Shown piece by piece: positions 6,053 through 23,013 of a stretch of 64,000 nucleotides of DNA. The notes below the pieces were generated by a model, which searched no databases, was not told where the DNA came from, and saw nothing but the letters and a program-made list of their open reading frames with translations. The position numbers and the translations under genes are program-made. Source of the stretch: Amycolatopsis circi (lineage in GTDB: Bacteria; Actinomycetota; Actinomycetes; Mycobacteriales; Pseudonocardiaceae); the NCBI RefSeq assembly GCF_003385235.1, contig NZ_PQIA01000026.1, forward strand, positions 1-64,000, given 5' to 3'. Each line of letters starts with the position of its first letter. Position 1 is the stretch's first letter.

Positions 6053-8025
6053 CTGCCTCATACGAGGAATCGCCAGCCTTCCCGGAAGTTCCAGACACTA
6101 TGGTCAGCGCGAGCGGCGGCGATCACAGCTCTGTTTACGCGGCGGGCCGCGACCTCACGATCCTGCTCGGGAAGGCGCTCGGGCTCCAAAGCCTGCAACC
6201 AGAATTACAGCAGGTGCAAACCTGCTATGCGCCCATCGCGGCGAGCGAGTGGGCCCAGGTCGTTAAGGCCTGGCGCGCATCGCGTCTGGTGATCATCACG
6301 GGTCCGCCCCGGGTCGGCAAGCGCACGGCGGCCCTACGGCTGCTCTCGCAGCGCGACTCGGACACCAAGCTCGCTGACTTCAGCCTGGCGGGAGTACGCG
6401 AGTTGCGCAAGGACTGGGAGACACCCGATGTCGGGATGCTCCCCGTCCTGCCAGGCACGTATCTGCTCGATCTGGGCGAGACACCAGCGGAGACCCTCCC
6501 CGAAGACTTCGGGGAGGGCTTGCGGTCATTCGTCGAGGACCCGGCGCACACGAAGATCCGACTCGTTGTAACGATGACCGACGACGCCAGTACGCGGTGC
6601 GCGAGCTCGTTGCACCAGCAAGTCGCGCGGGTGACGCGTCCTTCGCCGACCGACGTCGTCAAGGCACACCTGCAGCTGCTTGACCACGAAACACGCGCGG
6701 AATGGATCGATCACGAGCCACTGGACACACTGCTCACCGCGGATTCCTCACCACGGGATGCCGTGAGCCTCGCGCGGGCGATCGCGCACGCGCCCGACCC
6801 GGGAACCGACAAAGACAAGATCCTCGCCAGCGTCGCTGACGAGTTCCGGCGCTGGAGCGGGTACCTGACGGCCAAGTTCAACGGCCAGAACAGAAAGGCC
6901 GACGACGTCGCGCTTTTCATCGCCGCCGCAGTGGTAGACGGCGCCCCGCCGGACGTCGTCTGGAAAGCAGCCATGACGCTGCTCGGCCCGAATCGCCTGC
7001 ACCCCACGGTCGAACAGCTCCTACTCGAAGACGATCTCGAAACCAGGCTTCGCGCCATCACCGGCCACGGAAACGACGCTGCCTTGGACCGCGTGTCTCT
7101 CGACGTTACGCGCCGCGGAATCAGCACCGCCGTGCTACCGCACCTGTGGCGCCAACGACCACAGCTCGTCCCGGCGCTTCTTGCCTGGATTCAGGCGATC
7201 ACCGGCTCCGACGGCGTCGCCAAGGAACATCTGCCTGCGATCGGGGAACGGCTGGCTGTGCTGGCCGAAACACACCCGGGTGCCGGACTCGTCGACACCT
7301 TCCTGAAGTGGGCCGAGAAGGACATCGAGAACAGGCAGCTGGTGGCTGCTCTGCTGACTCGGCTGGCCGGTGACGGTGCCGTTGGCACCGAGATACGGAG
7401 GAGGACCTGGGACGCGGCCTACAACTACCACAAACGGACCACTACCACGACCTCCACGCATGAAGCGGCGGTCGTCGCAGAAATGTGCGCCGGCCGGTTC
7501 GCCATCGATTACCCCAATGAAACACTTGTGCGGCTGAAGTGGCTGCTGGACGGTCCGGCGTCGGAAGACGTCCACGCCCCAGCCCGCCGGGCGCTGCGCA
7601 AGCTCTGCACGTCCACCGATCAGGTCATGGCTCTCCTGCGCACCGCGCTGGCGTGGCGCAAGGAAGCGCCGAACGCGAGTGCCCGGGTCGTGCTGTACTT
7701 GCTCGACCCCGATGACGGAGAGACCTCGCTTGCGCTGCTCGAACTGGCCGAACGCCAACCGGAGGTGCTCGAAGCTGTCCGCGCCGGCTGGGGAATCCTG
7801 CTCGAAGCGAACGCCGTGCGCAGAGAAACCGCGAAGTTGATTCGAGAGTGGCTGACCGCGGTACCGTCCGGTGCGCTGCCACCCGAGCCGACCAAGACCG
7901 TGCTCGCCGAGGTTTTGCGTACCAGCGTCAGCAACAACGAGGTGGCTAAGGCGTTTCTGCCGGAGGGTGCCGACGATGTGCAGGGCCAACTCATGACCGA
8001 GATCATCGCGAAGAGCTGGCAGTGA
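6049..8025 (+). CDS. STAND/NLR-like P-loop ATPase with N-terminal amyloid-like motif
   Basis: This is a 658-residue cytoplasmic protein. Residues 20-38 (SASGGDHSSVYAAGRDLTI) match the C-terminal motif of the upstream protein. A P-loop domain follows with Walker A GPPRVGKRT (85-93) and a Walker B-like YLLDL (138-142). The remaining 400 or more residues are predicted mostly helical and could be a superstructure-forming sensor, but no TPR or WD consensus stands out. STAND ATPases act as ligand-triggered oligomerising switches in immunity and regulation. The ATG at 6049 sits in an ATGA overlap. A longer open frame upstream only reads antiphase through the previous gene. The stop overlaps a GTG start of the third gene. 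Confidence 0.7.
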   Translation: MTASYEESPAFPEVPDTMVSASGGDHSSVYAAGRDLTILLGKALGLQSLQPELQQVQTCYAPIAASEWAQVVKAWRASRLVIITGPPRVGKRTAALRLLSQRDSDTKLADFSLAGVRELRKDWETPDVGMLPVLPGTYLLDLGETPAETLPEDFGEGLRSFVEDPAHTKIRLVVTMTDDASTRCASSLHQQVARVTRPSPTDVVKAHLQLLDHETRAEWIDHEPLDTLLTADSSPRDAVSLARAIAHAPDPGTDKDKILASVADEFRRWSGYLTAKFNGQNRKADDVALFIAAAVVDGAPPDVVWKAAMTLLGPNRLHPTVEQLLLEDDLETRLRAITGHGNDAALDRVSLDVTRRGISTAVLPHLWRQRPQLVPALLAWIQAITGSDGVAKEHLPAIGERLAVLAETHPGAGLVDTFLKWAEKDIENRQLVAALLTRLAGDGAVGTEIRRRTWDAAYNYHKRTTTTTSTHEAAVVAEMCAGRFAIDYPNETLVRLKWLLDGPASEDVHAPARRALRKLCTSTDQVMALLRTALAWRKEAPNASARVVLYLLDPDDGETSLALLELAERQPEVLEAVRAGWGILLEANAVRRETAKLIREWLTAVPSGALPPEPTKTVLAEVLRTSVSNNEVAKAFLPEGADDVQGQLMTEIIAKSWQ

Positions 8026-8753
8026 GGCGATGGGGAAGCCGTCACGGCGGACGAGGCCGGATCCAGTTCACCGCGCGGCTGGACAGCAACCTGCCAACCG
8101 TCAGGTTCAGTGCGGCCATGACCGTAGGGTGGAATCGCACCACGGCGCAACAACAGGAACCTCTCGTCCGCGCGATCGTCCGGAAGGACGTGGAGGCAGC
8201 GCTCGGAAAGGAGTCCCCGCACGACCTCGGTGCAGCAGCCGATGCCGTCTGGTTGCACACAGGAGGCGGATTCAATTCCCAGCAGCACGGTCTAACTATC
8301 AAACTCGAGGCTGTCCAAATCAGGCTGGACGAGGAAGCTCGCAGAGCGCTCGCGGATCATGAGGAGGCTTCTCGGCTCGCCTGGCAACGCGCCGAAAACC
8401 TCACGATGCAAACGAAGTCATTGCGAGATCTGCTCAAAAGCCAGGACACCGGCCTGGCATGGCTGCTTCGCCAGCACGGCCAAATAGTCCTCACGAACTC
8501 GATCGACGCCGATCGTCTGATAACTATCCTGAACAATATCGCGGCCGTGCGACCGGTGCCGTCCGTCGGCAAGACCCTAGTCGACCAGCTTGTCGATCTG
8601 ATGCGGCAGTTCGTCGCACCCATCACCGAACCAGCTCAGAAGCAGTTGTTCCTGCAGATGCTGCCTTTCTTCTTCACTCATTACGGGAGGGACGACCTGG
8701 CGCAACAAGCAGAAGAGCTCGCCAAGAATCCGATAGACGAGCGTCCGCCATAA
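8022..8753 (+). CDS. hypothetical coiled-coil protein, third gene of the NLR-like operon
   Basis: This is a 243-residue protein starting at GTG in a GTGA overlap with the ATPase gene, so it is almost certainly co-translated. The N-terminal 90 residues are mixed strand and helix (TVRFSAAMTVGWNRT, VRKDVEAAL). A segment ending KLEAVQIRLDEEARRAL runs into a charged helix (DHEEASRLAWQRAEN), reminiscent of the junction between an SPFH/Band-7 domain and its coiled coil. That resemblance is weak and is my inference. The C-terminal 80 residues are helical (VDQLVDLMRQF, QKQLFLQMLPFFF). There is no membrane helix and no catalytic motif. Linkage suggests a sensor or regulatory subunit for the STAND ATPase. 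Confidence 0.55.
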   Translation: MRRWGSRHGGRGRIQFTARLDSNLPTVRFSAAMTVGWNRTTAQQQEPLVRAIVRKDVEAALGKESPHDLGAAADAVWLHTGGGFNSQQHGLTIKLEAVQIRLDEEARRALADHEEASRLAWQRAENLTMQTKSLRDLLKSQDTGLAWLLRQHGQIVLTNSIDADRLITILNNIAAVRPVPSVGKTLVDQLVDLMRQFVAPITEPAQKQLFLQMLPFFFTHYGRDDLAQQAEELAKNPIDERPP

Positions 8754-8847
8754 CCTGCTCGTCGATGAGGCCGCCAGTGAGCGTCATGCTCATACCGCAC
8801 CGAGGCCAATAAGGGTACCTGCCTAACAGCGAATCGCGGAGGGAACG

Positions 8848-9789
8848 ATGAGCGAGGCCATTGCGGAAGGCCCGGATTTTCGTGGCTCGACAGCACGAAA
8901 CGGTGGCGCTGATGTTGGCCGACCTCGAGCCAAAACTGCAGCCTCGAACAAGACGGCATGCCTGCAACGATGGATCGCGCGGCTGCTCATGATCACCGCT
9001 GCACCAGGCATCTTGCCCTCGCACTTGTGGAGTGCGCCTCTGCGCGACGCGGAATCACGGTACCTCGCTGATAACGGAGTTCCGGAGCGCTATCGGGAAC
9101 TGATCTTTCGGGCGACGCGCTGTCAGACCCGGATGACATTCATCGGCTTGCTCACGGTCGTGGTTGCCGTGGTATTGCTGGAGGTGGTGCTCGTGCTGCC
9201 GGTTCAGTTTCCTGCCATGCCACCGTTTCTGGTAGGCAGGGACGGGTCATTTGTTGCGGGTACTTTTCTTGCCTTCCTCTCGATGTGGGTGCTTTCGTTG
9301 CTGAACGGGTCGCCGCGAAGACGGCTCATGGTCTCGGTAGGGCGCGCGGCGCGCTTGGTCCTGCTTCTTGATCCACGCGCGGAGCAGTCCTGGCGCGGCC
9401 GCGTCCTTCAGTCCTACCTCGCGGAGCCCAGGGTCCGGCGCAGGCATGTCGAGGGAGTGGCGTGGGCGCTCACTCGAGACACCGCCATCCTCACAGGGCA
9501 GGACGCGGCTGCAGGCATGACGGTAGGCGAATTACTGCTCTGGTTCGCCGAGAACCCGGCCGACCGGCGACGACGACCAGTTCTCGGCATATACGTGGCT
9601 GAACTGGCGGCCGCTGCCGCAGGCGGATACTCCATTCCCCATGCCCAGTTCATGCCCGCGGCTCGATTTCGGACCCGGTCGCCCAGAGAACCGGCCTTAC
9701 GTCGGCTACGCAGCTTCGTCGGCGGAGCACTGGCAACCGGGATCGTCGTCGCGATCGTCACGGCAGTCTTGCGCCTCTGGTTCAAGTAA
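8848..9789 (+). CDS. membrane protein, unknown family
   Basis: This is a 313-residue protein with a basic cytoplasmic N-terminus. It has two adjacent strong membrane segments (about residues 94-116, MTFIGLLTVVVAVVLLEVVL, and 130-150, FVAGTFLAFLSMWVLSLL), a soluble Arg-rich domain, and a terminal membrane segment (GGALATGIVVAIVTAVL) near the C-terminus. A good ribosome site (GGAGGG) precedes the ATG by 8 bases. It starts 94 bp after the NLR-like operon and may have its own promoter. I recognise no family. A membrane protein next to an NLR-like operon could be a target or executor, but nothing in the sequence proves a link. Confidence 0.55.
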   Translation: MSEAIAEGPDFRGSTARNGGADVGRPRAKTAASNKTACLQRWIARLLMITAAPGILPSHLWSAPLRDAESRYLADNGVPERYRELIFRATRCQTRMTFIGLLTVVVAVVLLEVVLVLPVQFPAMPPFLVGRDGSFVAGTFLAFLSMWVLSLLNGSPRRRLMVSVGRAARLVLLLDPRAEQSWRGRVLQSYLAEPRVRRRHVEGVAWALTRDTAILTGQDAAAGMTVGELLLWFAENPADRRRRPVLGIYVAELAAAAAGGYSIPHAQFMPAARFRTRSPREPALRRLRSFVGGALATGIVVAIVTAVLRLWFK

Positions 9790-10276
9790 AGTCCAGGATG
9801 ACGATCAATCCCAACCTCGAGGTCGGCGGGCAGGACGCCGAGGCTTGGGCGGCGCGTGCAGTGACGGCTTCGGCAGGTACCCGTGTAAGCGATCACGATG
9901 CCAATGCGGGAGATCCGCGGCCAACCGGTGCCCCAGAGTCCGTCACGGAACCAGGCAGCACCCACACCACCTGGCCGAACGGGTCCAAGGCCCGCCGCCC
10001 CGTCGGGTGCCCGGGCGCAGTCTGCGTCGGCTGAGCACTCGGCCGCCTGCCCCGTTGTTAGCTTGTGCCGACCTGAGGTCTCGGTTAGCTCGCTCTGGCT
10101 TCTGCCGAGACGTCGGCGTCAGTCTGTTTAGCCTATGGTGCCGAGCACATAAAGTCGGGTCTGGATTCATGGGCCGCGGCGAGTTCTCATCTCTGCTAGC
10201 CTCGCAGCATCCTCCTGAGAGGTCGCGGCCGTGTGCGAAGGACTGCGATGGCATGTGCGGCAGGGCTCCGGTGCCC
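9790..10276. other. intergenic stretch without a supportable gene
   Basis: An ATG frame of 78 residues starts 9 bp after the membrane protein gene, but its composition is low-quality and it lacks a good ribosome site. I see only short, Arg- or Pro-rich frames in all directions. The right end leads into the conserved upstream element of the first paralogue. Confidence 0.4.
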
Positions 10277-10310
10277 CCGCTGGCAATGCCGAAGGGTGTG
10301 GGGCACCCAC
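10277..10310 (+). promoter_or_regulatory. conserved upstream element, copy 1, with hairpin
   Basis: The core GGGTGTGGGGCACCC (10294-10308) is an inverted repeat with 5-bp arms and a 5-base loop. It is preceded by CCCGCTGGC. The same 15-base core and flank recur at 11384-11416. Each copy lies about 75-80 bp before the start of one of two paralogous genes. It may be an operator, promoter part or RNA leader hairpin. Confidence 0.55.
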
Positions 10311-10381
10311 TTCGCGCGCAGCGATGGAAATGATCGTAGGAACGTGACCATGTGCGGGCCGGAACGCAGAATGGATCACGC

Positions 10382-11290
10382 ATGCCCTCATCACCCCGGC
10401 GCAAGCTAAAGGACATCCGGCGCTTGTACACTGGCGAAGACAAAGCGAGCGCGAAGGCCGGCGTAGGCAGGGGCGACCTCGGCCTCGATCGATGTTCGCC
10501 TCAACAGCGGCGATTCCGCGCGCTGCTGGCGGTCTACCTCTTCAACGCCAACATGGCTAACACGCCTTTCGCTGCTCAGCACAGCGCGAACGCGTTCCTG
10601 TCCTACAGCATGACCGTGTCGCCATGGTTCGACGCCTTCGTCTGCGTCATACCTAGTGCCGTCGAGAACGCCGTCGGCCGGCTTTTGGCCTCACCCACGG
10701 ACGGTGACCTGCAGTACGGGATACCAGGGCTGCGCGTAACCGCGGCCGTCGACTTCAGGACGTACCACCTCGTCCACCTGTCCACCGGCGCGAAGATGGT
10801 GCTGGCTTCCCGGCCGGACTTCCCGCCCGTGAGCGAAATCCAGCGCATCGGCCCGTACCGCGAAACCTGGAGCGCCAAGCACTACGTCGGTGCCGAGATC
10901 CCGCTCACCGAGGTGGAACGCGGGGCCCTGTCCCGCATTCCCTCGATGTCTCCTGGAATCGAGCGGATTCTCGCGGCACTGGTAGCCCGGCTCGATGCGC
11001 GCGACCCCTCCGGCAAGTGGGCAATGGGGATGTGGTGGTACGACCCGCTCCTTCGCCCGCATCCGCTGGAGTATCGCCGCGGCCGCAAGATCTCGCTGTG
11101 GGGCCAAGGATCGACCTGGGAACTTCGGTGGAACGGCTGGCCGTCACCAGAGGACCTCACCGCGTGCGTGACAGCACCCGTCATCGGCGCCCCGCACCTC
11201 ACTGCCACGCAACGCTCGTCATCCGAATGGGTCATAACACTCGACGGATGCAGGCTGACGTTGACATACACGCCGTACGAACGTCCATGA
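10382..11290 (+). CDS. hypothetical protein, paralogue A of a tandem pair
   Basis: This is a 302-residue protein of unknown family, clearly related to the next gene. Shared blocks in the same order are LDRCSPQQRRFRA near residue 35, GIPGLR near 112, HLSTGA near 130, IPSM near 185, a Trp-rich block with LWGQG near 238, and PVIGAP near 266. It has no signal peptide or membrane segment. The many conserved Trp and the IPSM helix suggest a folded cytoplasmic domain. I chose the ATG at 10382. An earlier in-frame ATG at 10352 adds ten weak residues. It carries its own copy of the upstream hairpin element, so it is probably transcribed separately from paralogue B. Confidence 0.55.
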   Translation: MPSSPRRKLKDIRRLYTGEDKASAKAGVGRGDLGLDRCSPQQRRFRALLAVYLFNANMANTPFAAQHSANAFLSYSMTVSPWFDAFVCVIPSAVENAVGRLLASPTDGDLQYGIPGLRVTAAVDFRTYHLVHLSTGAKMVLASRPDFPPVSEIQRIGPYRETWSAKHYVGAEIPLTEVERGALSRIPSMSPGIERILAALVARLDARDPSGKWAMGMWWYDPLLRPHPLEYRRGRKISLWGQGSTWELRWNGWPSPEDLTACVTAPVIGAPHLTATQRSSSEWVITLDGCRLTLTYTPYERP

Positions 11291-11383
11291 GCACACCGTG
11301 CATCCGCAGAGAGCGAGATCGTGTACGCTCGTCGGTGCTCGGAGCGCAAGGGGCCGGGGCTGCGGCGGATCTACCCAGACGAT

Positions 11384-11416
11384 CCCGCTGGCGGCAAGAG
11401 GGTGTGGGGCACCCAC
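11384..11416 (+). promoter_or_regulatory. conserved upstream element, copy 2, with hairpin
   Basis: This repeats the element at 10277-10310. CCCGCTGGC is followed by the identical 15-base inverted-repeat core at 11400-11414, about 80 bp before the start of paralogue B. The DNA between the copies is otherwise diverged, so its retention suggests function. Confidence 0.55.
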
Positions 11417-11494
11417 CTTGCAATACAGCAGTGTTGGGTCGTCAGCACGTCTGGCACGTGTCTACAGTCGAGTCTGGGCGACAGGAGACGCGCC

Positions 11495-12481
11495 ATGCCT
11501 GGAACTTCCCGACTGCACTTCGCCGGTCTCCGCAGCCAGTTCACTCGCGAACCGCGCTCGCTCGCGGCACGCGCTATCCCGCGGATCACTCCCGGCACCA
11601 CGCCGTCAGCACTGGGGCTGGACAGCTGCAATCCTGCTCAGAAGCGATTCCGTGCGTTCGCCGCGCCCTTCCTGCTCAACACTCCAGACGTGCCGCCCTG
11701 GGTTCGGGACCCGCGCGCTCGGCCCGCCGCAAGGCCGAGCGCCGCCCGGGTCGGTTGGAACAGGGTTGTCGTCTCCCCTCAGTACAACGACTTCAGCATC
11801 CTCGCTGAGGATCCTGATCACCTGGTGCAGTACCTCGCAGACAACGACGACGACTATCTGACCCTCGGCATCCCAGGCTTGCGCCCTGCGGAGGTGGAGG
11901 GGCGTGGCGAGGCACTGTTGATGAAGCACCTCCCTACCGGAGCGTGGTTGCGGGTGCGCTATCACAACCGTTACACGCCCAAGCTGCGAACGCCGCCGTG
12001 GTTTTTCCCGACCAATTGGCGACATCTACGGCGTGACGTCGTCCTGGGACTGCAAGAACGCGACTCCCTCGACGCGATCCCGTCGATGGGCGAGGATGCC
12101 GTAGACCTGCTCGCTGGCTTGGTCGCGCGGCTCACGTGCCGAAGCGACGACGAGGGGTGGGCAGTCGGCTGGTTGGTCAGCGATCCCATGCAACGGGCGT
12201 CTCGCGAGCAGAGCTGGTTCGACTTCATACAGCTGTGGGGAGGTCAAGATCGCTGGATCTTGCAGTGGGGCGGCTACGGCTCGGTACCGGCGAGTGATCT
12301 AGCCCGGGCGCTCACGCATCCAGTCATCGGAGTCCTCGGTGCCCGCGCCACGAAGTCGGAGGAAACGCGCGCCGAAGTCCGGCTCCGGAAAGCGTGCTTG
12401 ACGCTGGAACTACACGACGTTCCCACATCCATGCACTTCGCCAACGCTCACCGCGGTGCCTCTGGCGAGGCGACGCGATGA
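11495..12481 (+). CDS. hypothetical protein, paralogue B of a tandem pair
   Basis: This is a 328-residue homologue of the preceding gene. It has LDSCNPAQKRFRA near residue 42, GIPGLR near 125, HLPTGA near 145, IPSM near 195, a Trp-rich block with LWGGQ near 247, and PVIGVL near 275. It is longer at the N-terminus and has an Arg/Pro insertion (DPRARPAARPS). The ATG at 11495 is supported by GGAG 9 bases upstream. An open frame extends further back without a credible start. The stop overlaps the ATG of a small membrane protein gene (ATGA), an element paralogue A lacks. The function is unknown. The tandem duplication and divergence suggest variation under selection, as in conflict genes, but this is inference. 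Confidence 0.55.
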   Translation: MPGTSRLHFAGLRSQFTREPRSLAARAIPRITPGTTPSALGLDSCNPAQKRFRAFAAPFLLNTPDVPPWVRDPRARPAARPSAARVGWNRVVVSPQYNDFSILAEDPDHLVQYLADNDDDYLTLGIPGLRPAEVEGRGEALLMKHLPTGAWLRVRYHNRYTPKLRTPPWFFPTNWRHLRRDVVLGLQERDSLDAIPSMGEDAVDLLAGLVARLTCRSDDEGWAVGWLVSDPMQRASREQSWFDFIQLWGGQDRWILQWGGYGSVPASDLARALTHPVIGVLGARATKSEETRAEVRLRKACLTLELHDVPTSMHFANAHRGASGEATR

Positions 12482-12696
12482 ACAGCACACAAGAGCCGCT
12501 GTCCTGGAAGCACGTCGTGGACAGCTGCCTCCGCGATCACCGGCGATTCCGTCGCATGCTCGTCCTGGTCATCGTCCTCGCAGCCTTCACGCTCACACTC
12601 GTGGCCATCGCAGGCTGGCCGTTGGCCGGCATCGGCTCGATAGCAACCTGCGCCTTGGCGCGCCGCCGCACAAGACAACTGCACCCACGCGATTGA
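12478..12696 (+). CDS. small two-helix membrane protein
   Basis: This is a 72-residue protein translationally coupled to paralogue B (ATGA overlap at 12478). The N-terminal 28 residues are charged and cytoplasmic (SWKHVVDSCLRDHRRFRR). They are followed by two closely spaced membrane helices (MLVLVIVLAAFTLTLVAIAG and PLAGIGSIATCAL) and a short basic tail. It could be a membrane partner or anchor for paralogue B, or an immunity or holin-type peptide. Nothing more specific can be read from the sequence. Confidence 0.55.
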   Translation: MNSTQEPLSWKHVVDSCLRDHRRFRRMLVLVIVLAAFTLTLVAIAGWPLAGIGSIATCALARRRTRQLHPRD

Positions 12697-12737
12697 CAGA
12701 CAGCCCCGCAAAGAACCGTCTCCGTTATTCGCAACCG

Positions 12738-12881
12738 CTACCGGCATGCGACCCACCAGCCGATCACGGTGATGATCAGTCCGCCGCAACCGCTGGCGAG
12801 CCCCTTCAACAACCCCAGCGCGATCTCCGCACCTGCCCGCCGCCACAGTCCCTGCGACTGTTCGGTCTTCTTTTCAGTCAT
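12738..12881 (-). CDS. 47-residue single-helix membrane peptide
   Basis: This is a short minus-strand gene. The ATG at 12881 is preceded by GGGGGAACGGAC, a strong ribosome site. The product starts with a charged polar segment (MTEKKTEQSQGLWRR), continues with an amphipathic helix, and ends in a hydrophobic segment (GGLIITVIGWWVACR) closing with TAG at 12738. It is divergent from the helix-turn-helix/Z1 gene, and both share the short intergenic region with the TTGCA array. Its size and charge pattern resemble type I toxin-like or membrane-anchoring microproteins. The function is not known. Confidence 0.5.
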   Translation of the reverse strand: MTEKKTEQSQGLWRRAGAEIALGLLKGLASGCGGLIITVIGWWVACR

Positions 12882-12935
12882 GTCCGTTCCCCCTTGTCGT
12901 GGATCGATGCAGGTCACGCTGCCGTATGGGCTGAT

Positions 12936-12974
12936 GTTGCATCAATTGCAACGCGTTGCAAAAGGTTGTGCAAC
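12936..12974. promoter_or_regulatory. array of TTGCA half-sites, probable operator
   Basis: It contains GTTGCA (12936-12941), then a perfect 16-bp palindrome TTGCAACGCGTTGCAA (12946-12961), then TGCAAC (12969-12974). Alternate half-sites face each other. It lies between a divergent small membrane gene and the helix-turn-helix/Z1 gene, whose N-terminal domain is the obvious candidate binder. Confidence 0.55.
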
Positions 12975-13012
12975 AGCTGGCCAACGCGCAGCTGCTGGGG
13001 TTTACTTGGCGA

Positions 13013-15070
13013 GTGCGGCACACCTCCGGTCACCTTGCGCCGCTCAGAACGGACCTCCCCGCCGAGCGATTCGCACTCGCGAATGCGCTGCGCGGGCAGT
13101 TCACGATGCTGCTTCCGATGTCCGTACGTGCATATGCAAGGAAGCAGGCGCTCCAGGCGAGTACAGTGACCCGCTACTTGAGCGGCGCGGTGCTACCGTC
13201 CGAGGACTTCATCAACGACCTCGTCGACGAGGTCCAGCTACGGTGCAAGAAACCGCAACCTGGGCAGCCCCGAGATCTGTTGAGCCTCCTGCACGCCGCT
13301 CAAGACGCTCAGAGCGGGACGTGGGGACACGCGAAGCGCTTGCAGAAGCAGGCGGCAGCTCTCCGAGCTCGTGTTGAGTCTCTCGAGCTGAGCCGTCAAG
13401 AGTTATTCGAAGAAAACCGCGAGCTCAGGAACCGTCATGCCTCAGCGAGCGAGTCCATACGCCAGCAGCTGCAGGTAGCGCACACCCGAATCACCGAACT
13501 CGAGTGCGAACGCGCTGCCCTCCTCGCACGTCTTGACGACTCAGCCGCCGCCCACCAGCCAGAAACACGAGCGCTCCGCAGAGGGTACTGGCACTTCTAC
13601 CGAGAAACCCTGCAAGCCCAAGGCTGGTCCGCCCAGGCGATCGCCAACGCCGATTCCGTGGCCACCTCGGTACTCACGCGCTTAGCGGCTCCCTCGGCCA
13701 TCGCGCCTGGTCACCGTAGAGGACTGGTGATCGGACAGCCAGGAAGCGGCCGAACTGCCGCCGCTATCGGGCTCATCGCGAAGGCTATTGACGCGGGATA
13801 CCGCTTGGTCATCGTCCTCGGAGGCAACCAGAACGCACTCCGTCGACAGGTTCAGGACCGCCTCGACGAAGCGCTCCCCTCATTACCAGGCGAGCCTGCC
13901 ATCATCCGCTTAACCGGCGCTGACCTCGACTACAGCAGGCTGGGCCCGCGCTTGCGCGGGCTGGAGTTCGAGAAGCAGCAACCGGACCAGCCGCTGAACT
14001 CACCGGACAACCTCAATAACACCGCAGTACGACTGCTCGTGGTCAAGAAGAACGCCGCAGTATTACGAAAACTAAACGGAGATCTGAACGCCGGCGCTTC
14101 GCTTGCCGAGGTCCCAACCATCATTGTCGACCTGGACACCGACATAGCACAGCCAGGGTTCGCCGTTGACCGGCACATCAACGGCCTGCTCCGCACTCTT
14201 CCAAATGCACAGCACGTTGCCTACGCCTACAGTTCGTTTGCCGACCTTCTAGCCGACGACGGAATCGACTTCGTCGTCGACTTGCCAAGACCCGCCGAAT
14301 ACATTGGTCCCGGCACCTTCCATGACACCGACCAGGACGTATCAGTCGAACAGCGGGACCTGGCCAGATCGGGAGAAGCTGCCTTCGTCCGCCGCGTCGA
14401 TCCGCAGGAACGCGGCCTTGTGGCCTCAATGGACGCGTTCGTACTGACGGGCGCGATGAAGATTCATCGCACACCGCAGGTTGGCGAGGTGTTCGACAGA
14501 CACACCCTATTCGTGCACGGATCAGCCCGGATCAAAGAACAAGAAGATCTTCGCGCTCAGGCTGCCGCCTTATGGCGGAAAACCAGCTACGCAAGCATCG
14601 AAAGCATCACCCGACTCCGCGAACTCTTCGAAACAGACTTTTTGCCAGTGTCGCGAGCTCGCAACACAGAGGTACAGCTGCCATCGTCCTTCGACGAGCT
14701 GATCCCTGCCATCAAGACAGCCTTGACTCGCATCGGAGAAAATCCGATCGCCCGCGAACCGGACATCGGTGCGAGCCGTTTGTGGAAGATCTTCGTATCC
14801 AATTCCCGCTCAGTAGGCGAACCCGCCAGCGAAGGACTCACCATCCTGCACGTGCGCGACAGCGCTGGACTAACGACAATCCTGAAGCTTGCGGACATCT
14901 GGTTCGGCTTCCGTCCGCACTATACAGACTTGGTGCGCCTTCACATTCCCACATCCAGCAAGTCCGGCCGCGACCTCTATACAGACCTTTCCGAAACCTG
15001 GCAAGAATCAGAAGAACTTCGCGCCGAAATATTCGGCCTAACAAATTCCACCCCTTCTGAACTCGAATGA
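13013..15070 (+). CDS. HTH-coiled coil-Z1 domain fusion with degenerate helicase motifs
   Basis: This is a 685-residue protein. Residues about 15-70 are an XRE-type helix-turn-helix (AYARKQALQASTVTRYLSGA). Residues about 110-170 form a coiled coil (RARVESLELSRQELFEENRE). The rest matches the Z1 domain, an SF2-helicase-related ATPase of conflict systems: GLIAKAIDAGYRLVIVLGG, DFVVDLPRPAEYIG, TLFVHGS and WFGFRPHYTDLVRL are all in order. The catalytic motifs are altered. Walker A reads GQPGSGRT (Arg for Lys), the DDEAD-type box reads VDLDTD, the TATPFAN motif reads AYSSFAD, and the GRWFGYR arginine motif reads ADIWFGFRP. It is probably a non-hydrolysing or regulatory relative. The GTG at 13013 is chosen because the helix-turn-helix needs residues upstream of the ATG at 13106. 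A TTG at 12956 inside the operator is less likely. Confidence 0.65.
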   Translation: MRHTSGHLAPLRTDLPAERFALANALRGQFTMLLPMSVRAYARKQALQASTVTRYLSGAVLPSEDFINDLVDEVQLRCKKPQPGQPRDLLSLLHAAQDAQSGTWGHAKRLQKQAAALRARVESLELSRQELFEENRELRNRHASASESIRQQLQVAHTRITELECERAALLARLDDSAAAHQPETRALRRGYWHFYRETLQAQGWSAQAIANADSVATSVLTRLAAPSAIAPGHRRGLVIGQPGSGRTAAAIGLIAKAIDAGYRLVIVLGGNQNALRRQVQDRLDEALPSLPGEPAIIRLTGADLDYSRLGPRLRGLEFEKQQPDQPLNSPDNLNNTAVRLLVVKKNAAVLRKLNGDLNAGASLAEVPTIIVDLDTDIAQPGFAVDRHINGLLRTLPNAQHVAYAYSSFADLLADDGIDFVVDLPRPAEYIGPGTFHDTDQDVSVEQRDLARSGEAAFVRRVDPQERGLVASMDAFVLTGAMKIHRTPQVGEVFDRHTLFVHGSARIKEQEDLRAQAAALWRKTSYASIESITRLRELFETDFLPVSRARNTEVQLPSSFDELIPAIKTALTRIGENPIAREPDIGASRLWKIFVSNSRSVGEPASEGLTILHVRDSAGLTTILKLADIWFGFRPHYTDLVRLHIPTSSKSGRDLYTDLSETWQESEELRAEIFGLTNSTPSELE

Positions 15071-15971
15071 TCAGGCACACAGGAAGGCGACGGCACATCA
15101 CGCCTTCACAACGACAGCGGTGATAATTAATCGAATAACAGACCAGCCGACATCGAGGTCCGCAGACATCTCCCATGCTGCAACTATGACTTCAAGAACC
15201 GACCCAGGAACCTCATGCGCGCCAGGCGGGCACCCTCCTCAAAGGCGGCGAACGCTACGAACTGCGGCTACCAGACCTCGAGAGATCGGACCACTCAACC
15301 CGCTACCAACGAATAAGGCCGGCGAGCTCATATCACGGCTGAGCGTCACCGCCTCGAAGCACACGCTCATCCCGGTGTTGAGCACTCGCCCCGGCATCGT
15401 GCGGCTGCTGCGCGAGTTCGACGACGACCCGACGCGGCCCGCAGGTTCCGCGCCGGTTACACGGGCCAAGGCTGTGATGGAACCAGTTCTGCCGCAGCGC
15501 GACCGCGCCTGCCGCAACCGCCGATCACCTCGAACAACCACAGACGGCCCGATGTCCTTCGCGTTCCACGGCACCGTGCGCGAGAGCGGCACCGCACATT
15601 CCGGCAACACCCACCAGCTACGAGACGAGCAACGAGGACGACCTCAACCACGCCGCCGAACGACAGCGACTCCGCCTCGTCATGCGATCACACCACCACC
15701 CATGTCCAGCCAGGCGATCAATGGCTCGGATACGGACATTGGCAGCTCTGGCTCGTCCCTCGCGCTCCCATCACCGAAATACAGTTCGATTGACGGACCA
15801 TGGTCACTCGCCACCTGGAGTGATAGTGGGTGCCTCCAGCAGTCGTGTCTGAATTGCCCGGGCATGCTGCCCGATGAGGCGAGGGGGTGTTCGAATACCT
15901 AGACAGTGGATATCCCTGGCTGGCTTGACCAGGCTACGAAGGCTGAGATCCGACTCTGGCTGCGGGCTGCT
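15071..15971. other. degenerate 900-bp stretch downstream of the Z1 gene
   Basis: Protein-like pieces occur in different plus-strand frames. About 15215-15330 reads LLKGGERYELRLPDLERSDH. About 15310-15450 in another frame reads GELISRLSVTASKHTLIPVL and later VRLLREFDDD. A 260-codon open frame covers the area but switches between sensible and Arg/Pro-rich sequence and has no ribosome site. I interpret this as a frameshifted, decayed gene that once followed the Z1 gene. Identity is unknown. Confidence 0.4.
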
Positions 15972-18071
15972 TCAGGAGACTTCGTCGTCAATGAGCCCGT
16001 AGGGAGGTTGGTCTTCTCGTCGCGAGTAGCGAACAACGACGTCGGGGTCGGTGGAGCTCGGAGGCGCATTGTCAACGACAATGATCTGGGCGCCTTGACC
16101 CGCGCCTGCGAGCCACGTGTGCAGGTGCTGATAGAAATCCGTGACGGCAATGCTGTCAGCGAATTCGGTGTCGCGGTCGCCGCCCTGACCGAGGTTCTTT
16201 TGCGGGCTGTCGATCATGAGGAAGCCAGGGTGAGCGCTGCCGGTCTCCCAGGCGATCTGGAAGATTGCCAGTATCCAGGCCAGGGAGATCAGGGTGCGCC
16301 CCCCAGAGGAAGCGTTGGTATAGCTCATACCGCGCATGTGGGGGACGAGGCGACCGTCGATGAACGCCTGGTCGAGCTTGGGGTAGCGCCAAGAGGTGAG
16401 GATGGCAACATAGCGCTCGCTGATGCGGTGAATGACGTCGTTGCGGTCCGGCTGCATAGCGGCTTCGTTCATCTCAGTCCGCAACGCATCGACGTTGGTT
16501 TCGAGGCGAGCAACTGTAGCTCCGCGTCGGTCGAGGCTGTCGAGCATCCTGATCGCGGTCTTCGCCCGGTCCAGGCTGGCCGCGGCGGCCTGCTGCTGAC
16601 GCATCAGGTCGTCGCGCTGGCTGAGGTATGGGCTCACCGCGGCGTTGGTCGCGGCGTCCACCTCGTGCGCGAGGCCAGCCTCGTTGTCGTTGGCTTGCTT
16701 GGCCTCGATACGCAGATGTCCGAGTTCTGATTCGAGCTCCTCGACGAATGTAGTGATTTCCGCCAAGCGTGCCTTGGTGGCTCGCAGCTCGGTGGAGACG
16801 TCGAACTTCGCCTCGGTTACGGTGCCTGCAGTGTCCTGCGCGGTGTTGTTCGCAGATGAGCCGTTGGTGGACGCGGTGGTGCCGGTGGATTCTGTTGCTG
16901 GCAAGGTGACTTCAGAGCTGCATAGCGTGCAGTGGCCGTCGGCGATGTGCGGGGCGTCCCGGAGCACAGTCAGGCAAGCGGGACAGACCTTCACTTGCAA
17001 CGGATCGAATAACTTGCGCGCCTCGGCGAGCATTGTCAGCTTGGTGATGTCGGCGGCGTACTGGGCACGGAGAGGAACGAGGCGGCGTAGCTGGGTCTCA
17101 CGGTCGCGCACGAGCGCCGCGGCCTGCTGTGCCTGCCGAGACGCATCGCGGTGCCTTGCGCGCAGGTCCGCGGCAAAGGTGGATGCAGCGCGGATCTCGG
17201 TGTCCAGGGTTTCGAGCGCGCGCGTGGCCTGTTCGACCTTCTGCTCGGCATCCCCGCGGATCAGTTCGATCTCAACGCGCGTGCCGAATTCCTGCTCGTC
17301 GAGGAACCCCTGGGTGGTGGTGTACTCGGCGCGAGCCTTGGCCAGTCGGTTCTCCAGCTCTCTGATTCGGCGGCCGAGTTCGACTGCCTTGTCGTCGTGG
17401 ACGCCAAACACGACGTCGACCACTTGGCCGAGCTTGAGGCGCTTCATGGGAGAGCTCTCGAACAGCAGGTGCTTGTCGTCGAGTCGCTCGTTGGGCATGT
17501 AGCTGAGCCACAGCAGATCGCGGATGCTGAGCGGATCGGTTCCGGACTCCGCCTGGGTGGGTGCCTCGCGCAGCTCCACGCCTTCGAGACCGCAGTAAGA
17601 CAGGAGGAAACTCGAGAGGCTGTCCGCAGCACCGGCAGGCCTGATCATCTTCTTGTCGAGGGGTGGGATCTCGACATCCCCAAGGCGTCCCGTCCTGACG
17701 AACGCGGCAGTGGATGGCTCACCGACAGCCCGCTCAATGACGTGAGGTTGCCCGTTGAGCTCGACTTCGAGGAGCGCCGACCTGACCTTGCGGAGGATCT
17801 CCGGATGCTGTGGGTGATCTTTTCCGCCAAGGCAGTAGGCAACGAACTCAAGCACCGAGGACTTGCCCGTGCTGAACGCCCCGGCGATGACAGATAGCGA
17901 CCGCAGTTTTGTTTCGGTGTCCCGGAAGTCGACCTCGTAGTCGCGGTCGATGCCCTTGAGTCGGAGGCGCACGAGCCGGATACCACGGGGAACGACGATG
18001 GGCTCGGAGGAGCCACCCGCGGTGGGCGGGTTGTCCCGAACAGCCTTGCCAGGGTCATTCTCGGTGCTCAT
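15972..18071 (-). CDS. ABC-3C system ATPase, SMC/Rad50-like (DUF3732 type)
   Basis: This is a 699-residue cytoplasmic ATPase. Walker A is GAFSTGKS (64-71). The Walker B/D-loop region is FLMIDSPQKNLG (about 614-625), preceded by a signature-like SSGGRTLISLAW. Long coiled-coil stretches lie between them. Two CxxC pairs (VCPACL and HCTLCS, about residues 362-386) sit between the coils and probably bind zinc like a hook or ribbon. This architecture is that of the ABC ATPase of ABC-three-component systems, which couple it to a middle component and an effector. The ATG overlaps the stop of the middle-component gene (ATGA), so the three genes form one operon. The role is probably sensing DNA or phage and licensing the nuclease. 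Confidence 0.75.
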   Translation of the reverse strand: MSTENDPGKAVRDNPPTAGGSSEPIVVPRGIRLVRLRLKGIDRDYEVDFRDTETKLRSLSVIAGAFSTGKSSVLEFVAYCLGGKDHPQHPEILRKVRSALLEVELNGQPHVIERAVGEPSTAAFVRTGRLGDVEIPPLDKKMIRPAGAADSLSSFLLSYCGLEGVELREAPTQAESGTDPLSIRDLLWLSYMPNERLDDKHLLFESSPMKRLKLGQVVDVVFGVHDDKAVELGRRIRELENRLAKARAEYTTTQGFLDEQEFGTRVEIELIRGDAEQKVEQATRALETLDTEIRAASTFAADLRARHRDASRQAQQAAALVRDRETQLRRLVPLRAQYAADITKLTMLAEARKLFDPLQVKVCPACLTVLRDAPHIADGHCTLCSSEVTLPATESTGTTASTNGSSANNTAQDTAGTVTEAKFDVSTELRATKARLAEITTFVEELESELGHLRIEAKQANDNEAGLAHEVDAATNAAVSPYLSQRDDLMRQQQAAAASLDRAKTAIRMLDSLDRRGATVARLETNVDALRTEMNEAAMQPDRNDVIHRISERYVAILTSWRYPKLDQAFIDGRLVPHMRGMSYTNASSGGRTLISLAWILAIFQIAWETGSAHPGFLMIDSPQKNLGQGGDRDTEFADSIAVTDFYQHLHTWLAGAGQGAQIIVVDNAPPSSTDPDVVVRYSRREDQPPYGLIDDEVS

Positions 18072-18727
18072 GTACGGCGTCCATCGTGGGGCGGAGGAAC
18101 AGGTGCGTCGGCTAGGAGCAAGTCGGAGGCTGACGGGCTCTCCTCCACCAGGTGGATGGCGTCGAGGAGGTCGAGCGCTTCTGGACGCGCGGAATCGCGT
18201 GCCGTCATGGTCCAGGTCTGGACCGCATCGCGTAGACGGGAGTCGCTATAGCGGCGCAGCTTGGTGAGCAGAATCTCTGCAGACAGCCGGTATGACCTTG
18301 CGTAGACGGCGCTGAACCTCTCAGCGAGTTCGACGCCTTCGGCAGTCGCGGCGTACAGCACGCTCTTGTCCACCGCTGGCTCCACCAAGCCGTAGGCCAC
18401 GAGCAGGGCCAGGTCATGCTGGAGGCGCTCCCGCCGGGTGGTGAAGCGGTGTGCCGGACTGGCGTAGCTCAATGCCCGACCGTCGAAGCCCGCCATAAGC
18501 AGCCGTTTCCGGTCCCGGTCTTCCTCATCGGTGAGCACCAGCATCGGGTTGGCCACGAGAAAGTCGTAGTAACCCAACCGCTCGATCGACGCTCCGGGAA
18601 GATTGAACTCACGTAGCGACGCAAGTAGCAGCACCAGCTGCGCCAGCCGGAAGACGACGTCGTCCTCCGGCACCACGACCGGCGGCCGGGAGCCCGAGCT
18701 CGTTGGGGCGTCGGTCGGGCTGGTCAC
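18068..18727 (-). CDS. ABC-3C system middle component
   Basis: This is a 219-residue protein starting at GTG in a GTGA overlap with the upstream effector gene and ending in an ATGA overlap with the ATPase gene. The N-terminal 30 residues are Pro/Ser-rich. The body is helical with features of middle components that bridge effector and ATPase: RLAQLVLLLASLREF, LGYYDFLVANPMLVL, a winged-helix-like RRERLQHDLALLVAYGLVEP, and a C-terminal helical region. I cannot assign the numbered middle-component subfamily with certainty. The call rests on position, size and the strong calls for both neighbours. Confidence 0.65.
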   Translation of the reverse strand: MTSPTDAPTSSGSRPPVVVPEDDVVFRLAQLVLLLASLREFNLPGASIERLGYYDFLVANPMLVLTDEEDRDRKRLLMAGFDGRALSYASPAHRFTTRRERLQHDLALLVAYGLVEPAVDKSVLYAATAEGVELAERFSAVYARSYRLSAEILLTKLRRYSDSRLRDAVQTWTMTARDSARPEALDLLDAIHLVEESPSASDLLLADAPVPPPHDGRRT

Positions 18728-19785
18728 GACGGCTCCGCTGTGGCCGCGGTGTCAGGAACCTCGCCTGGTTGCCCGGTCTCGGCAGGATTTACGTGGTCCT
18801 CCGCGACCTGCCGCCAGTGGCGGACCCACCCGGCCCGTCGGTCGTCGACGACTCGGTGCATCAGGCCGGTCGTGTGGACCGCACCTGCGGGAAGCCCAGC
18901 TCCCAGGGCTTCGTGCTGGGACCTGATCTCACCCATCACCGACTTCTGCAGGCCTGGCAGGCGCGAGCCCTCGTGGATCTGGCACGCGTCGTTGAAGTGG
19001 TCCTCCCACAGGCCATGCACCGCCGCGTCGGCGTGGGACAGTGCGGCGACCTCTGAGGGGACTCCCTTGTCCACGATTTCTCTCGCCATCAACTCGGCGT
19101 TGAAAAATTGGTGCTTGGATGCGGAGACTTCCACATGGCCTGCCTCACGGAGCTGACGCACGAACAACGCTGAATCTAGCCGGTCGGAGTCCTCATCGGC
19201 CAAGTTCACGACTTGGGCGACCGTGCGCACCGACCGAGCGGGCTCGTAGTAGTGCCTGCGCACAGCCTCCGCGTCAGGTGAGAGCAGAAGTCCTCGCAGC
19301 TCGTTCTCGTCCCACAACTCGATCAAGACCCCGTGCTGTTTCTCCGTCCGCTTCTTCCAGCCCGACCACCACTTCGATGTAGGCGCGTCCATGCTGGACG
19401 GTACGCAGAGAACCCACTGGTGCAATACGAACTTCTCGTTGGCGGCGTTCTTCACCGCCGAGTTGAAGGACTCCCGGATTTGCGCTTGATGGGTACTGCC
19501 CGCAACCTCGGGCATAAAGTACTTCGACTGCCAAATCGTGATGTGACCGCCAAGGTCGCCGATGAACACATCGATGCCCCAGTCACCGGGGTTGGCGGCA
19601 ACCATCGCTGCCACCCCGGGCCGGACGGCGCGGACCAGCTGACCGATCATCTCCTCGAAGTCTTGTCGAGCGCCGTGGGTGTTCGCGCGAACTTCGTGCG
19701 CACGGAAATTGATAGGTGAACCGCCAGCAGCCACGCCCGAAGGCGAACTCGTCACCGCAGCCGTACCCTGCGACAACCTGATCAC
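18724..19785 (-). CDS. ABC-3C effector: Mrr-like restriction endonuclease fold
   Basis: This is a 353-residue protein. Residues about 40-90 carry a PD-(D/E)xK nuclease core: an acidic helix (QDFEEMIGQL), then GDWGIDVFIGD with the catalytic Asp near 72, then TIWQSKYF with the QxK pair at about 86-88. The following 250 residues are a helical domain that in ABC-3C effectors binds the other components. It is the first gene of the three-gene operon. The start is uncertain. GTG at 19785 has GGAGG only 3 bases upstream, and GTG at 19830 or 19755 are alternatives. The product probably cuts nucleic acid when the ATPase complex is triggered. DNA as substrate is inferred from the fold. Confidence 0.7.
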   Translation of the reverse strand: MIRLSQGTAAVTSSPSGVAAGGSPINFRAHEVRANTHGARQDFEEMIGQLVRAVRPGVAAMVAANPGDWGIDVFIGDLGGHITIWQSKYFMPEVAGSTHQAQIRESFNSAVKNAANEKFVLHQWVLCVPSSMDAPTSKWWSGWKKRTEKQHGVLIELWDENELRGLLLSPDAEAVRRHYYEPARSVRTVAQVVNLADEDSDRLDSALFVRQLREAGHVEVSASKHQFFNAELMAREIVDKGVPSEVAALSHADAAVHGLWEDHFNDACQIHEGSRLPGLQKSVMGEIRSQHEALGAGLPAGAVHTTGLMHRVVDDRRAGWVRHWRQVAEDHVNPAETGQPGEVPDTAATAEPS

Positions 19786-20341
19786 CTGCCTCCATCGCTC
19801 AGACTGGCTCTGACGTGCTCTGTTGCCCACCGCAACATCGACTTACTAGCGCGGCACGTTACCGCCATCGTGGTGTGTCGCCGGACCGTAATCGTCTTGT
19901 TCTTCGATTCACCTGTCCGGCGGGCCATCACACGGCGTGAACTGTCGACCTTCTCGACAGCGTGGGGCTTCTTACAGAGCACGAAGGCAGACGACGACCT
20001 GTTCCAAGATGACTGGCCGCATGCTGGCCCCAGCCGGCGGTCGCCGTTGATGTTGATGTTCTCGACGTCGGTGTCGGCCAGCGGCGACTGCAAAGCCGAC
20101 CAGGACGAAAGACCTGGGCGGCTTGCAGCCGCCGCTGCTCGACGTTGGGCGGCACCAGCATTCCGCCAGCCGCGGAGTTGCGTAGCTCGGCCTGCGCGTG
20201 CGCGTTGGTCAAGATGACCTCGGTCAGCCAGCGGCGCGACGAGTCGTCCATCGTCGGCTGGCTGGCGGTCTCGCCGACGCGGTTGGGACGGTTAGTCAGG
20301 AGTTGGCCGCCGGGGATCACCCGCGTCAGCGGCAAAGCCGG
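19786..20341 (-). pseudogene. decayed coding fragments left of the DUF2637 gene
   Basis: On the minus strand about 20330-20110 reads protein-like (SSRRWLTEVILTNAHAQAEL, AAGGMLVPPNVEQRRLQ). It then continues in another frame as SALQSPLADTDVENINING around 20095-20040. The switch suggests a frameshift in a once continuous gene. Downstream sequence is Arg/Ser-rich. The original identity is not clear. A phage or integrative-element structural gene is possible but unproven. The left end overlaps the region where the ABC-3C effector gene may begin. Confidence 0.4.
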
Positions 20342-21067
20342 TCACGGACGCCCAGTCGCTCCTACCGGCGCATTGTCGAGCCGCACCGCCGCCACGAGAG
20401 TCCGCGACGTTCCTGCTCCGACCCGAAGCTGCTTCCGCAGAGTCTCCGCGGAGATTGGACGTCGGTAGCGCCGCCAGTGCTCCGCGTCCGCCCGACGCGC
20501 TCGCCTCATGAGTTCCTCATCAAGGTCGGCGTCCCCACGGGCCGCTGCTCGGACCCGCTTTTCGCGCTGCAGACCTGCCGCGGCGGGCACCACCTGTTCC
20601 AGGCCGCCATCCATCGATTCCGCGGGCAAAGCCGCTGGCGACTGAACCGAGCTGGGATAGGGCCTCGCCACGCTCAACGCACGAAGGAGGCCTGGACCTG
20701 CTTCGCATACCCCGATTAGCAAGAGCGGGCCGACCGAGTCGAACGCGGCCTTACCCCACTGACCAGCAAACACCGGATCGGCGACGTTCAGCAACAGGGT
20801 CACCACGCTCGCCGCCAACAGCAGGCGTCGCGCCGGCCGCAGCACCTCCTTGCTGGCCCCGGCCAGCGCTAGCTGCCGCGTACCGACGAGCAACCCCAGC
20901 ACCGTCAGGTCAACAGCAGGCGCCACCAGCGGTGCCACGAACGCTGGGACTTGAAGCTTCAACGCCAGGTTGAGGACGTTCCCAAACCCAAACAGGAACG
21001 TGAGCCCGATAACCAACCCCATCGTGACCGTGACAAACCGAGCAACCGCCTGCGAACTGGCGCTCAT
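20342..21067 (-). CDS. DUF2637 (SpdB-type) membrane protein
   Basis: This is a 241-residue protein with four predicted membrane helices in the first 130 residues (VTVTMGLVIGLTFLFGFGNV, PAVDLTVLGLLVG, LLLAASVVTLLLNV, GPLLLIGVCEAGPGLL). They are separated by the polar loop GTRQLALAGASKEVL, typical of DUF2637 proteins linked to intramycelial spread of actinomycete plasmids and integrative elements. The cytoplasmic C-terminus contains the usual HTH-like end (RPISAETLRKQLRVG). No relaxase, integrase or FtsK-type translocase is near, so it is probably a remnant of an integrative element. It lies at the right end of the accessory island. Confidence 0.65.
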   Translation of the reverse strand: MSASSQAVARFVTVTMGLVIGLTFLFGFGNVLNLALKLQVPAFVAPLVAPAVDLTVLGLLVGTRQLALAGASKEVLRPARRLLLAASVVTLLLNVADPVFAGQWGKAAFDSVGPLLLIGVCEAGPGLLRALSVARPYPSSVQSPAALPAESMDGGLEQVVPAAAGLQREKRVRAAARGDADLDEELMRRARRADAEHWRRYRRPISAETLRKQLRVGAGTSRTLVAAVRLDNAPVGATGRP

Positions 21068-21186
21068 GCCGGGCCTCCGCCTGAGCCCGGAAGCTCGAAG
21101 CTCGCCTCGACCACCAGCGTGCCGCTGAAGAGTCCCTGGTCAGCCCCGTTCCCATCCTTTGGTAGTCCTGCCGAGGGCACATTACC

Positions 21187-21227
21187 GGCCGATACTCGAA
21201 ATCACCTTCAAGGTGCGGGTATCGGCC
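21187..21227. terminator. nested hairpin, likely terminator
   Basis: The outer arms are GGCCGATAC (21187-21195) and GTATCGGCC (21219-21227). An inner stem CACCTT/AAGGTG (21203-21215) has a one-base loop. The plus strand continues with ATTTTCATTT. It lies 23 bp beyond the stop of the response regulator gene and marks the right border of the accessory island. Confidence 0.55.
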
Positions 21228-21250
21228 ATTTTCATTTCCGCCGCTCGACG

Positions 21251-21910
21251 TCACGCCGGGTGGATGAGGCGGCTTTCGTAGGCGAAGATCACCGCCTGGA
21301 TCCGGTCGCGGAGTTCGAGCTTGTGCAGGATCCGGCCCAGGTGGGACTTCACGGTCGCCTCCGCGAGGTGCAGGGCGGCGGCGATCTCTGCGTTCGAAAG
21401 ACCGGAGCCGACCTGGACGAGTACCTCGCGCTCGCGGGCGCTGAGTCTGCTCAGGCGCTCGTCGACAGCGGCGTCTGCGTCGGGCAGGTGCGGGCGGAAT
21501 TTCTCCAGCAGGCGGCCGGTGATCCGCGGGGAGACCACGGCGTTTCCGGCGGCCACGGTGCGGATCGCGGCTAGCAGTTCTTCGGGCCGGGTGTTCTTGA
21601 GCAGGAAGCCGGAGGCTCCGGCTTTGAGCCCGGCGAAGGCGTACTCGTCCAGGTCGAAGGTGGTGAGGATCAGGACTCTCGTCCGCGGACAGTCCTGGAG
21701 GATCTGCCGGGTCGCCTCGATTCCGTCGGTCCTCGGCATGCGGACGTCCATGAGGACGACGTCGGGACGCAGGTCGGTGGCGAGGCGGATGGCGTCGGCG
21801 CCGTCCGTGGCTTCGCCGACCGGTTCGAGGTCCGGCTCGGCGTCCAGAACCATGCTGAATGCCATGCGCAGCAACGCTTCGTCGTCGGCGATCAGGACGC
21901 GGATCGTCAT
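21251..21910 (-). CDS. NarL/FixJ family response regulator
   Basis: This is a 219-residue two-component regulator. The receiver domain (1-120) has the acidic pair D9/D10, the phosphoacceptor Asp in VVLMDVRMP at D55, Thr in LILTTFD and Lys in FLLKNTRPEE. A LuxR-type helix-turn-helix follows (LSAREREVLVQVGSGLSNAE, LAEATVKSHLGRIL). It should be phosphorylated by the kinase encoded immediately upstream, whose stop overlaps this start (ATGA). The target genes are unknown. The divergent hydrolase gene beyond the kinase is one candidate. Confidence 0.9.
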   Translation of the reverse strand: MTIRVLIADDEALLRMAFSMVLDAEPDLEPVGEATDGADAIRLATDLRPDVVLMDVRMPRTDGIEATRQILQDCPRTRVLILTTFDLDEYAFAGLKAGASGFLLKNTRPEELLAAIRTVAAGNAVVSPRITGRLLEKFRPHLPDADAAVDERLSRLSAREREVLVQVGSGLSNAEIAAALHLAEATVKSHLGRILHKLELRDRIQAVIFAYESRLIHPA

Positions 21911-23013
21911 GCGGACTCCGCTGAGGCACCGAAGACCAGTCGGGTGTGCACTCGCCAGCCGCCGCCGGGAAGCGGTCCGGCCAGCACCGTTCCCCCGTAG
22001 GCGGCCACGCGCTCGCGCATGCCGGTGATTCCGTTGCCAGCACGGGTGATCTGGGCTGCCGACGGGCCGGTGTCAGTGACGTCCACGGTGACGGTCTCGG
22101 CGGCGCATTCGATCCGGACCTTCGCGCGGGTTCCGGCTGGGGTGTGTTTGAGAGTGTTGGTCAAGGCTTCCTGGACCAGACGGTAGACGGTCAGTTGCGC
22201 GGTCGCGGGGATGTGCGGATAGCGGCCGTCGAGGTCGAGTTCGGTCTGGAGCCCGGCGGCGCACATCTGTCCGGCGAGGGTCTCCAGTTGCGCGATGCCG
22301 GGCAGCGGGTGGCGCGCCGCGTCCGGTTCGCCGGTGCGCAGGACTCCGAGCGAACGCCGCATGTCGGTCAGCGCCTGCCTGCCGGTTTCGGAGACCTGGA
22401 GCATCGCCGCGGTGGCTTTGTCTGGAGACCGACGCTGCGCGGAGACGGCGGCATCGGTGAGCGCGACCATGACGGACAGGTTGTGGGTGACGATGTCGTG
22501 CATCTCCCTGGTGATCCGGGCCCGTTCCTCGGCAACGGCCCGTTCCCGCAGGGCTTCCAGGTAGGCGCGCGCGGTCCGGTTGTTCACCCCGAGGACGGCC
22601 GCGGCGACGACCATCGCGGTGAGCGCGGTGAACGGGGTCAGGAACGCACCGTCGCCCGTCCAGCGCAGGCAGGCGAGGACGGCCCCGATCTCCACCACGA
22701 CGACAGCGACGAAGGTGACGCGCTTGCCCGAATTCGCGGCCACTGTGTAGAGAGCCACCAGCAGTGCGATGTCCGCGGGCAGTTGCACGCCCACCATCCA
22801 CTGGACTGCCGCTGCGGTCGTCACCGCACCGAACACCGTCAGCGGGGCATGGCGCCGCCACACCAACGGGACCGCGAGCCCGGCGGTGAGCGCGGCGGCC
22901 ACCGGCAACTCCGCAGGCGCCCACATGGTCAAGACGTGGAGGAGGAGAAGCGCGGGCAGCAGCGAGTCCCACGCTGTCGGCGGCAGCCGGGACGCCCAGC
23001 GCCGCTCGGTCAT
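21907..23013 (-). CDS. NarL-type sensor histidine kinase
   Basis: This is a 368-residue membrane kinase. About five hydrophobic segments occupy residues 12-150, with little extracytoplasmic sequence, so it probably senses a membrane or cytoplasmic signal. The HisKA_3 dimerisation helix contains the phospho-His in ARITREMHDIVTHN (about residue 171). The HATPase domain has the N-box EALTNTLKHTP and a late G-rich box (GNGITGMRERV). I take the ATG at 23013 (MTERRWASRL); an upstream ATG in the same frame adds twelve weak residues. It is coupled to its response regulator. The gene is divergent from the hydrolase gene at 23226. Confidence 0.88.
   Translation of the reverse strand: MTERRWASRLPPTAWDSLLPALLLLHVLTMWAPAELPVAAALTAGLAVPLVWRRHAPLTVFGAVTTAAAVQWMVGVQLPADIALLVALYTVAANSGKRVTFVAVVVVEIGAVLACLRWTGDGAFLTPFTALTAMVVAAAVLGVNNRTARAYLEALRERAVAEERARITREMHDIVTHNLSVMVALTDAAVSAQRRSPDKATAAMLQVSETGRQALTDMRRSLGVLRTGEPDAARHPLPGIAQLETLAGQMCAAGLQTELDLDGRYPHIPATAQLTVYRLVQEALTNTLKHTPAGTRAKVRIECAAETVTVDVTDTGPSAAQITRAGNGITGMRERVAAYGGTVLAGPLPGGGWRVHTRLVFGASAESA

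Follow-up and report, generated by a model that had tools for sequence, protein, structure and literature searches.

The window analysed here comprises 64,000 nucleotides of the soil bacterium Amycolatopsis circi (assembly GCF_003385235.1, contig NZ_PQIA01000026.1, positions 1 to 64,000, forward strand). It carries a gene for a fusion of a helix-turn-helix (HTH) head, a coiled coil and a Z1 helicase-type body, divergent from a gene for a 47-amino-acid (aa) peptide with a single transmembrane (TM) segment. Two tandem palindromes, regarded as a putative operator, lie between the two genes. The peptide gene and the palindromes are newly described here; they were missed in the preliminary description of the fusion gene and alter its likeliest role. 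The features of the locus are as follows.

12738..12881, minus strand: divergent 47-aa single-TM peptide gene, MTEKKTEQSQGLWRRAGAEIALGLLKGLASGCGGLIITVIGWWVACR, with Shine-Dalgarno (SD)-like AAGGGGGAA ahead of the ATG
12936..12952, unstranded: putative operator palindrome 1, GTTGCATCAATTGCAAC, GTTGC-N7-GCAAC (tandem-site comparison)
12955..12974, unstranded: putative operator palindrome 2, GTTGCAAAAGGTTGTGCAAC, GTTGC-N10-GCAAC (tandem-site comparison)
13013..15070, plus strand: HTH-coiled coil-Z1 fusion gene, encoding 685 aa
13034..13270, plus strand: XRE/HTH_31-like DNA-binding head (HTH_31 profile, solved-chain match, helices in predicted model)
13319..13552, plus strand: coiled coil, residues 103-180 (long helices in predicted model)
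13733..13756, plus strand: altered Walker A, GQPGSGRT (canonical GYVQSGKT; 43-row alignment)
14126..14143, plus strand: altered motif II, VDLDTD (canonical IDDESD; 43-row alignment)
14225..14245, plus strand: altered motif III, AYSSFAD (canonical TATPFAN; 43-row alignment)
14417..15037, plus strand: PF10593 (Z1) match, 46 bits versus 25 (profile search)
14894..14914, plus strand: altered arginine motif, DIWFGFR (canonical GRWFGFR; 43-row alignment)

Catalytic motifs, descent and rarity of the headed gene

The 43-row alignment comprised six rows with the HTH-coiled coil head (headed), 36 rows without it (headless), and L058, a duplicate of G980. SGKT, DDE[SA]D and [TS]A[TS]P[FY]AN were present in 36/36 headless rows and GRWFG[FY]R in 35, the exception being L021 (ARWFGFR). 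All four catalytic motifs are altered in the window protein, which confirms the fusion with altered ATPase motifs reported in the preliminary description. DDE[SA]D was found in none of the six headed rows, and their Walker A motif reads SGRT (window, G511, and G480), GGAS with a gap (G499), SGVS (G980), or SGKT (G378). A second set, consisting of the best 80 of 275 relatives in the named genomes, overlaps the first, and the counts are not additive. Its 77 headless proteins all possess QSGKT, DDE[AS]D and GRWFG[FY]R; 75 of them display the motif III pattern, while the other two read TATPCAN and TATPSAN. The three headed members, L138 (G480 again), L142 (Streptomyces dysideae), and L214 (Streptomyces sp. 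H27-S2), have lost all four patterns; L142 and L214 are close kin of G980.

The HTH_31 profile matched all 15 aligned heads (best E 2e-6), and the closest solved chain to the head is the HigA antitoxin (E 0.006). No head match was detected at E 0.01 in the 113 headless proteins of both sets. Loss of catalytic residues was observed in several species with the HTH head present every time (8/8 distinct loci), the combination named as supporting evidence in the preliminary description. Intact catalytic residues at shifted positions were not found, nor was the HTH missing from all homologues.

The six headed rows form a single clade (100/99) adjoining headless L057, L005, and L056; G378 and G499 occupy long branches in this tree of headed and headless rows. 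Neighbour genes were scanned for L057 and L056 and merely listed for L005. L057 (locus L071) adjoins MzaB- and MzaD-like genes in a MzaB-MzaD-MzaC locus, and L056 (locus L070) adjoins a MzaB-like gene and two cytosine methyltransferases in a locus of MzaB with MzaC. The nearest headless genes examined sit in MZA-like operons, and the proposed descent from defence helicases is thus supported. Judged from its sequence, the window protein derives from a DNA helicase of the defence type; the parts that burn ATP are lost, and a putative DNA-binding head has been added. The simplest account would be that the head captured an MZA-like helicase once and that the motor was lost afterwards.

The ratio of nonsynonymous to synonymous substitution rates (dN/dS) of the headed gene was 0.37 (G511), 0.21 (G480) and 0.33 (G499) in pairs with the window, and 0.29 between G980 and L142. 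In the G480 pair, the lowest value (0.11) was obtained for residues 189-330, which include the altered Walker A.

The headed form is rare. In the family (390 genomes), headed genes were found in the window genome, G511, G480, and G499, together with a remnant in G466; the latter (L055:10388-10617, plus strand) consists of head fragments only and is apparently a decayed copy. The order, class and genus surveys scored two candidates in nearly every genome and so give lower bounds: at least the window and G378 in the order (397 genomes), at least the window and G980 in the class (394 genomes), and at least G980 in its own genus (392 genomes).

The divergent peptide gene and the putative operator

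A like peptide occupies the equivalent position in all seven relatives, that is, in 8/8 headed loci counting the window. Strict calling (ATG, SD, 35-75 aa, hydropathy >= 1.4) recovered it in 5/8 headed loci versus 0/76 headless ones. A peptide-profile search of six headed genomes gave a single match per genome, each adjoining the headed gene; the profile was built partly from five of these peptides, and 150 of 562-676 candidates were scored per genome. The alignment of the window with the 19.5-kb G480 locus is confined to 12735-15097, namely, the gene pair. The dN/dS of the peptide versus G511 was 0.11. The window peptide had no Pfam match at E<=1. Beside the 3' end of its gene, and not within the segment that aligns with G480, lies a small open reading frame (ORF) with a strongly hydrophobic stretch (12394-12696, plus strand). 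Another match of the peptide profile is divergent from an iHD-CE conflict-domain protein (L124:1128-2429, plus strand).

The putative operator ends 38 bp ahead of the start codon of the headed gene. Tandem palindromes with <=1 mismatch per site were present in 8/8 headed loci versus 0/76 headless ones. For the headless genes, the earliest ATG or GTG in the frame served as the start, and upstream DNA was missing for one of the 77 loci. The operator form was defined on six of the eight headed loci; L142 and L214 are independent of the definition. Among loci with any kind of head, tandem sites were found in 18/37, versus 0.92 expected from shuffles and 0/27 in headless controls; 15% of shuffles did as well in the case of L094. 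In a looser control of 89 long ORFs of named loci, headed ones included, the operator was scored in four and the peptide in one.

Proposed mechanism and alternative explanations

A regulatory role of the headed protein is suggested because the conserved operator stands between the headed gene and the divergent gene. Of the "regulator or decoy" put forward earlier, the regulator gains from this arrangement, and the decoy is not supported: a PF10593 search of six headed genomes returned the headed genes as sole matches, and none in the genome with the truncated copy. The headed protein probably represses the membrane-peptide gene until a signal, perhaps a virus, is sensed; the former helicase body would serve as the sensor and 12936-12974 as the DNA site.

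Several observations weigh against this reading. Strict calling reached only five headed loci, and the three Streptomyces copies of the peptide have no SD. The peptide dN/dS versus G480 was 0.69 (47 codons), indicating weak constraint in that pair, and 18 of the 30 best peptide loci show no detectable adjoining head. The operator pattern had a single match in the genome, this locus; with counts of 1 and 1 in the reversed control, the result is not above chance and shows only the lack of a second exact site. The surroundings of the putative operator yielded no sigma-70-like promoter. As for the protein, the truncated G378 copy retains its SGKT, the three Streptomyces copies retain GR in the arginine motif and IDD in motif II, and the Walker A segment is not the most constrained one in the G511 and G499 pairs. 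The window head scored 18.7 bits against HTH_31, under the Pfam cut-off of 27. Viral and phage matches stop short of the head and hence provide no phage link.

Among the alternatives, the strongest is that the peptide is no toxin and instead anchors the HTH protein at the membrane or acts there as a sensor reporting to it, so that membrane release rather than derepression alters transcription. The Gly/Ala-rich peptide helix resembles the TM helix of EACC1, for which its authors suggest membrane sensing (PMC7159879), and other headed proteins adjoin small TM ORFs of different kinds. We nevertheless consider it rather unlikely, as an operator between divergent genes fits transcriptional control of the peptide. 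A pure autoregulator, in which the HTH protein regulates no gene but its own and intervenes directly as an effector (e.g., the helicase fold binding phage DNA) with the peptide as an accessory, would agree with the closeness of the operator to the gene's own start codon and with the constraint on the helicase-derived body; the alteration of all four catalytic motifs and the like peptide in 8/8 loci make it a distinctly poorer candidate. A decaying pseudogene of a functionless fusion, as the truncated G378 and the head fragments of G466 might suggest, is highly improbable and already contradicted by the selection data, with long open frames in 7/8 headed loci at identity as low as 33%, dN/dS of 0.21-0.37, and the operator kept.

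The same head, often with like peptides and operators, recurs on other bodies (solenoid-like, TIR-NB-ARC). Repression by the headed protein may exemplify an actinobacterial class of transcription-wired immune switches, with one HTH-coiled-coil head and operator type, membrane peptides, and swappable sensors: dead helicase, alpha-solenoid, TIR-NB-ARC-TPR, protease-like fold, and DnaA-like. In such switches, the sensor-repressor would read a pathogen signal, and derepression of a small membrane peptide would then kill. We regard this class, its list of sensors included, as a tentative proposal that could well prove wrong. If the repression model of the window locus is true, a defence helicase has lost its motor and survives as a sensor coupled directly to transcription, a new route from anti-phage enzyme to switch. 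The gene pair also hints at a family of membrane peptides, to which the window member without a Pfam match would belong, paired with swappable sensors. The model predicts an exact DNA site and is hence testable.

Further heads were recorded at other loci. In L104:282-2147 and L099:310-2166 (both minus strand), the head is fused to a DnaA-type protein, the DnaA domain being identified by Pfam in L104 and by eye in L099. In L067, L087, L088, L092, L093, L095, L096, L100, L101, L105, and L106, a small TM ORF lies upstream of the headed gene on the same strand, overlapping it by 8 bases in all 11 loci except L096. The body of the L067 protein is a response regulator by Pfam.

Neighbourhood and comparison with known systems

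Convergent with the headed gene, at 15972-19830 (minus strand), lie Lamassu-type genes LmuB (E 2e-241), LmuC (6e-60), and LmuA (7e-104). The adjoining ORFs 10352-11290 and 11321-12481 (plus strand) are alike by eye and matched nothing in Pfam, NCBIfam or PADLOC. Across window positions 7023-24648, the G511 locus shows 94.6% identity.

Neither gene of the pair matched an LmuA, LmuB or LmuC profile. MZA-like systems differ in several respects. Neither MzaB nor MzaD was detected among the eight window genes scanned, the neighbours being Lamassu genes and unknowns. In contrast to MZA-like helicases, the window protein has lost the catalytic motifs and gained an N-terminal HTH and coiled coil, and its gene has a divergent peptide gene and a putative operator. 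Most headless matches in the order survey also have longer frames, of 860-1170 aa.

The actinobacterial EACC1 two-gene system, as described in PMC7159879, pairs a small single-TM protein, encoded by the 5' gene, with a large variable protein, often a caspase-type peptidase encoded by the adjoining gene. Its TM helix contains small residues, often Gly, and has alpha+beta flanks; the authors suggest a membrane sensor (PMC7159879). The window pair likewise combines a small single-TM protein, with a Gly/Ala-rich helix, and a large protein. No caspase-type partner was found downstream in the window. Pfam, which presumably holds an EACC1 model, gave no match to this domain in the window peptide at E<=1.

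Former enzymes that carry an HTH head are already known, as are small membrane toxins; a pseudohelicase used in this way, with such a peptide and operator, was not found in the open literature searched, which included PMC7159879, PMC10907252 and PMC4267653. The window pair resembles HigA-type XRE antitoxins in the best solved chain of its head and in having an HTH protein adjoining a small gene. Unlike typical HigBA, its genes are divergent, the sensor body is long, and the neighbour is a TM peptide. One-component regulators from enzyme folds, such as MocR/PdxR and ROK, carry an HTH head on a former enzyme, with the operator between divergent genes. The window protein shares this architecture and differs from them in that its body is a helicase and its likely target a 47-aa membrane peptide.
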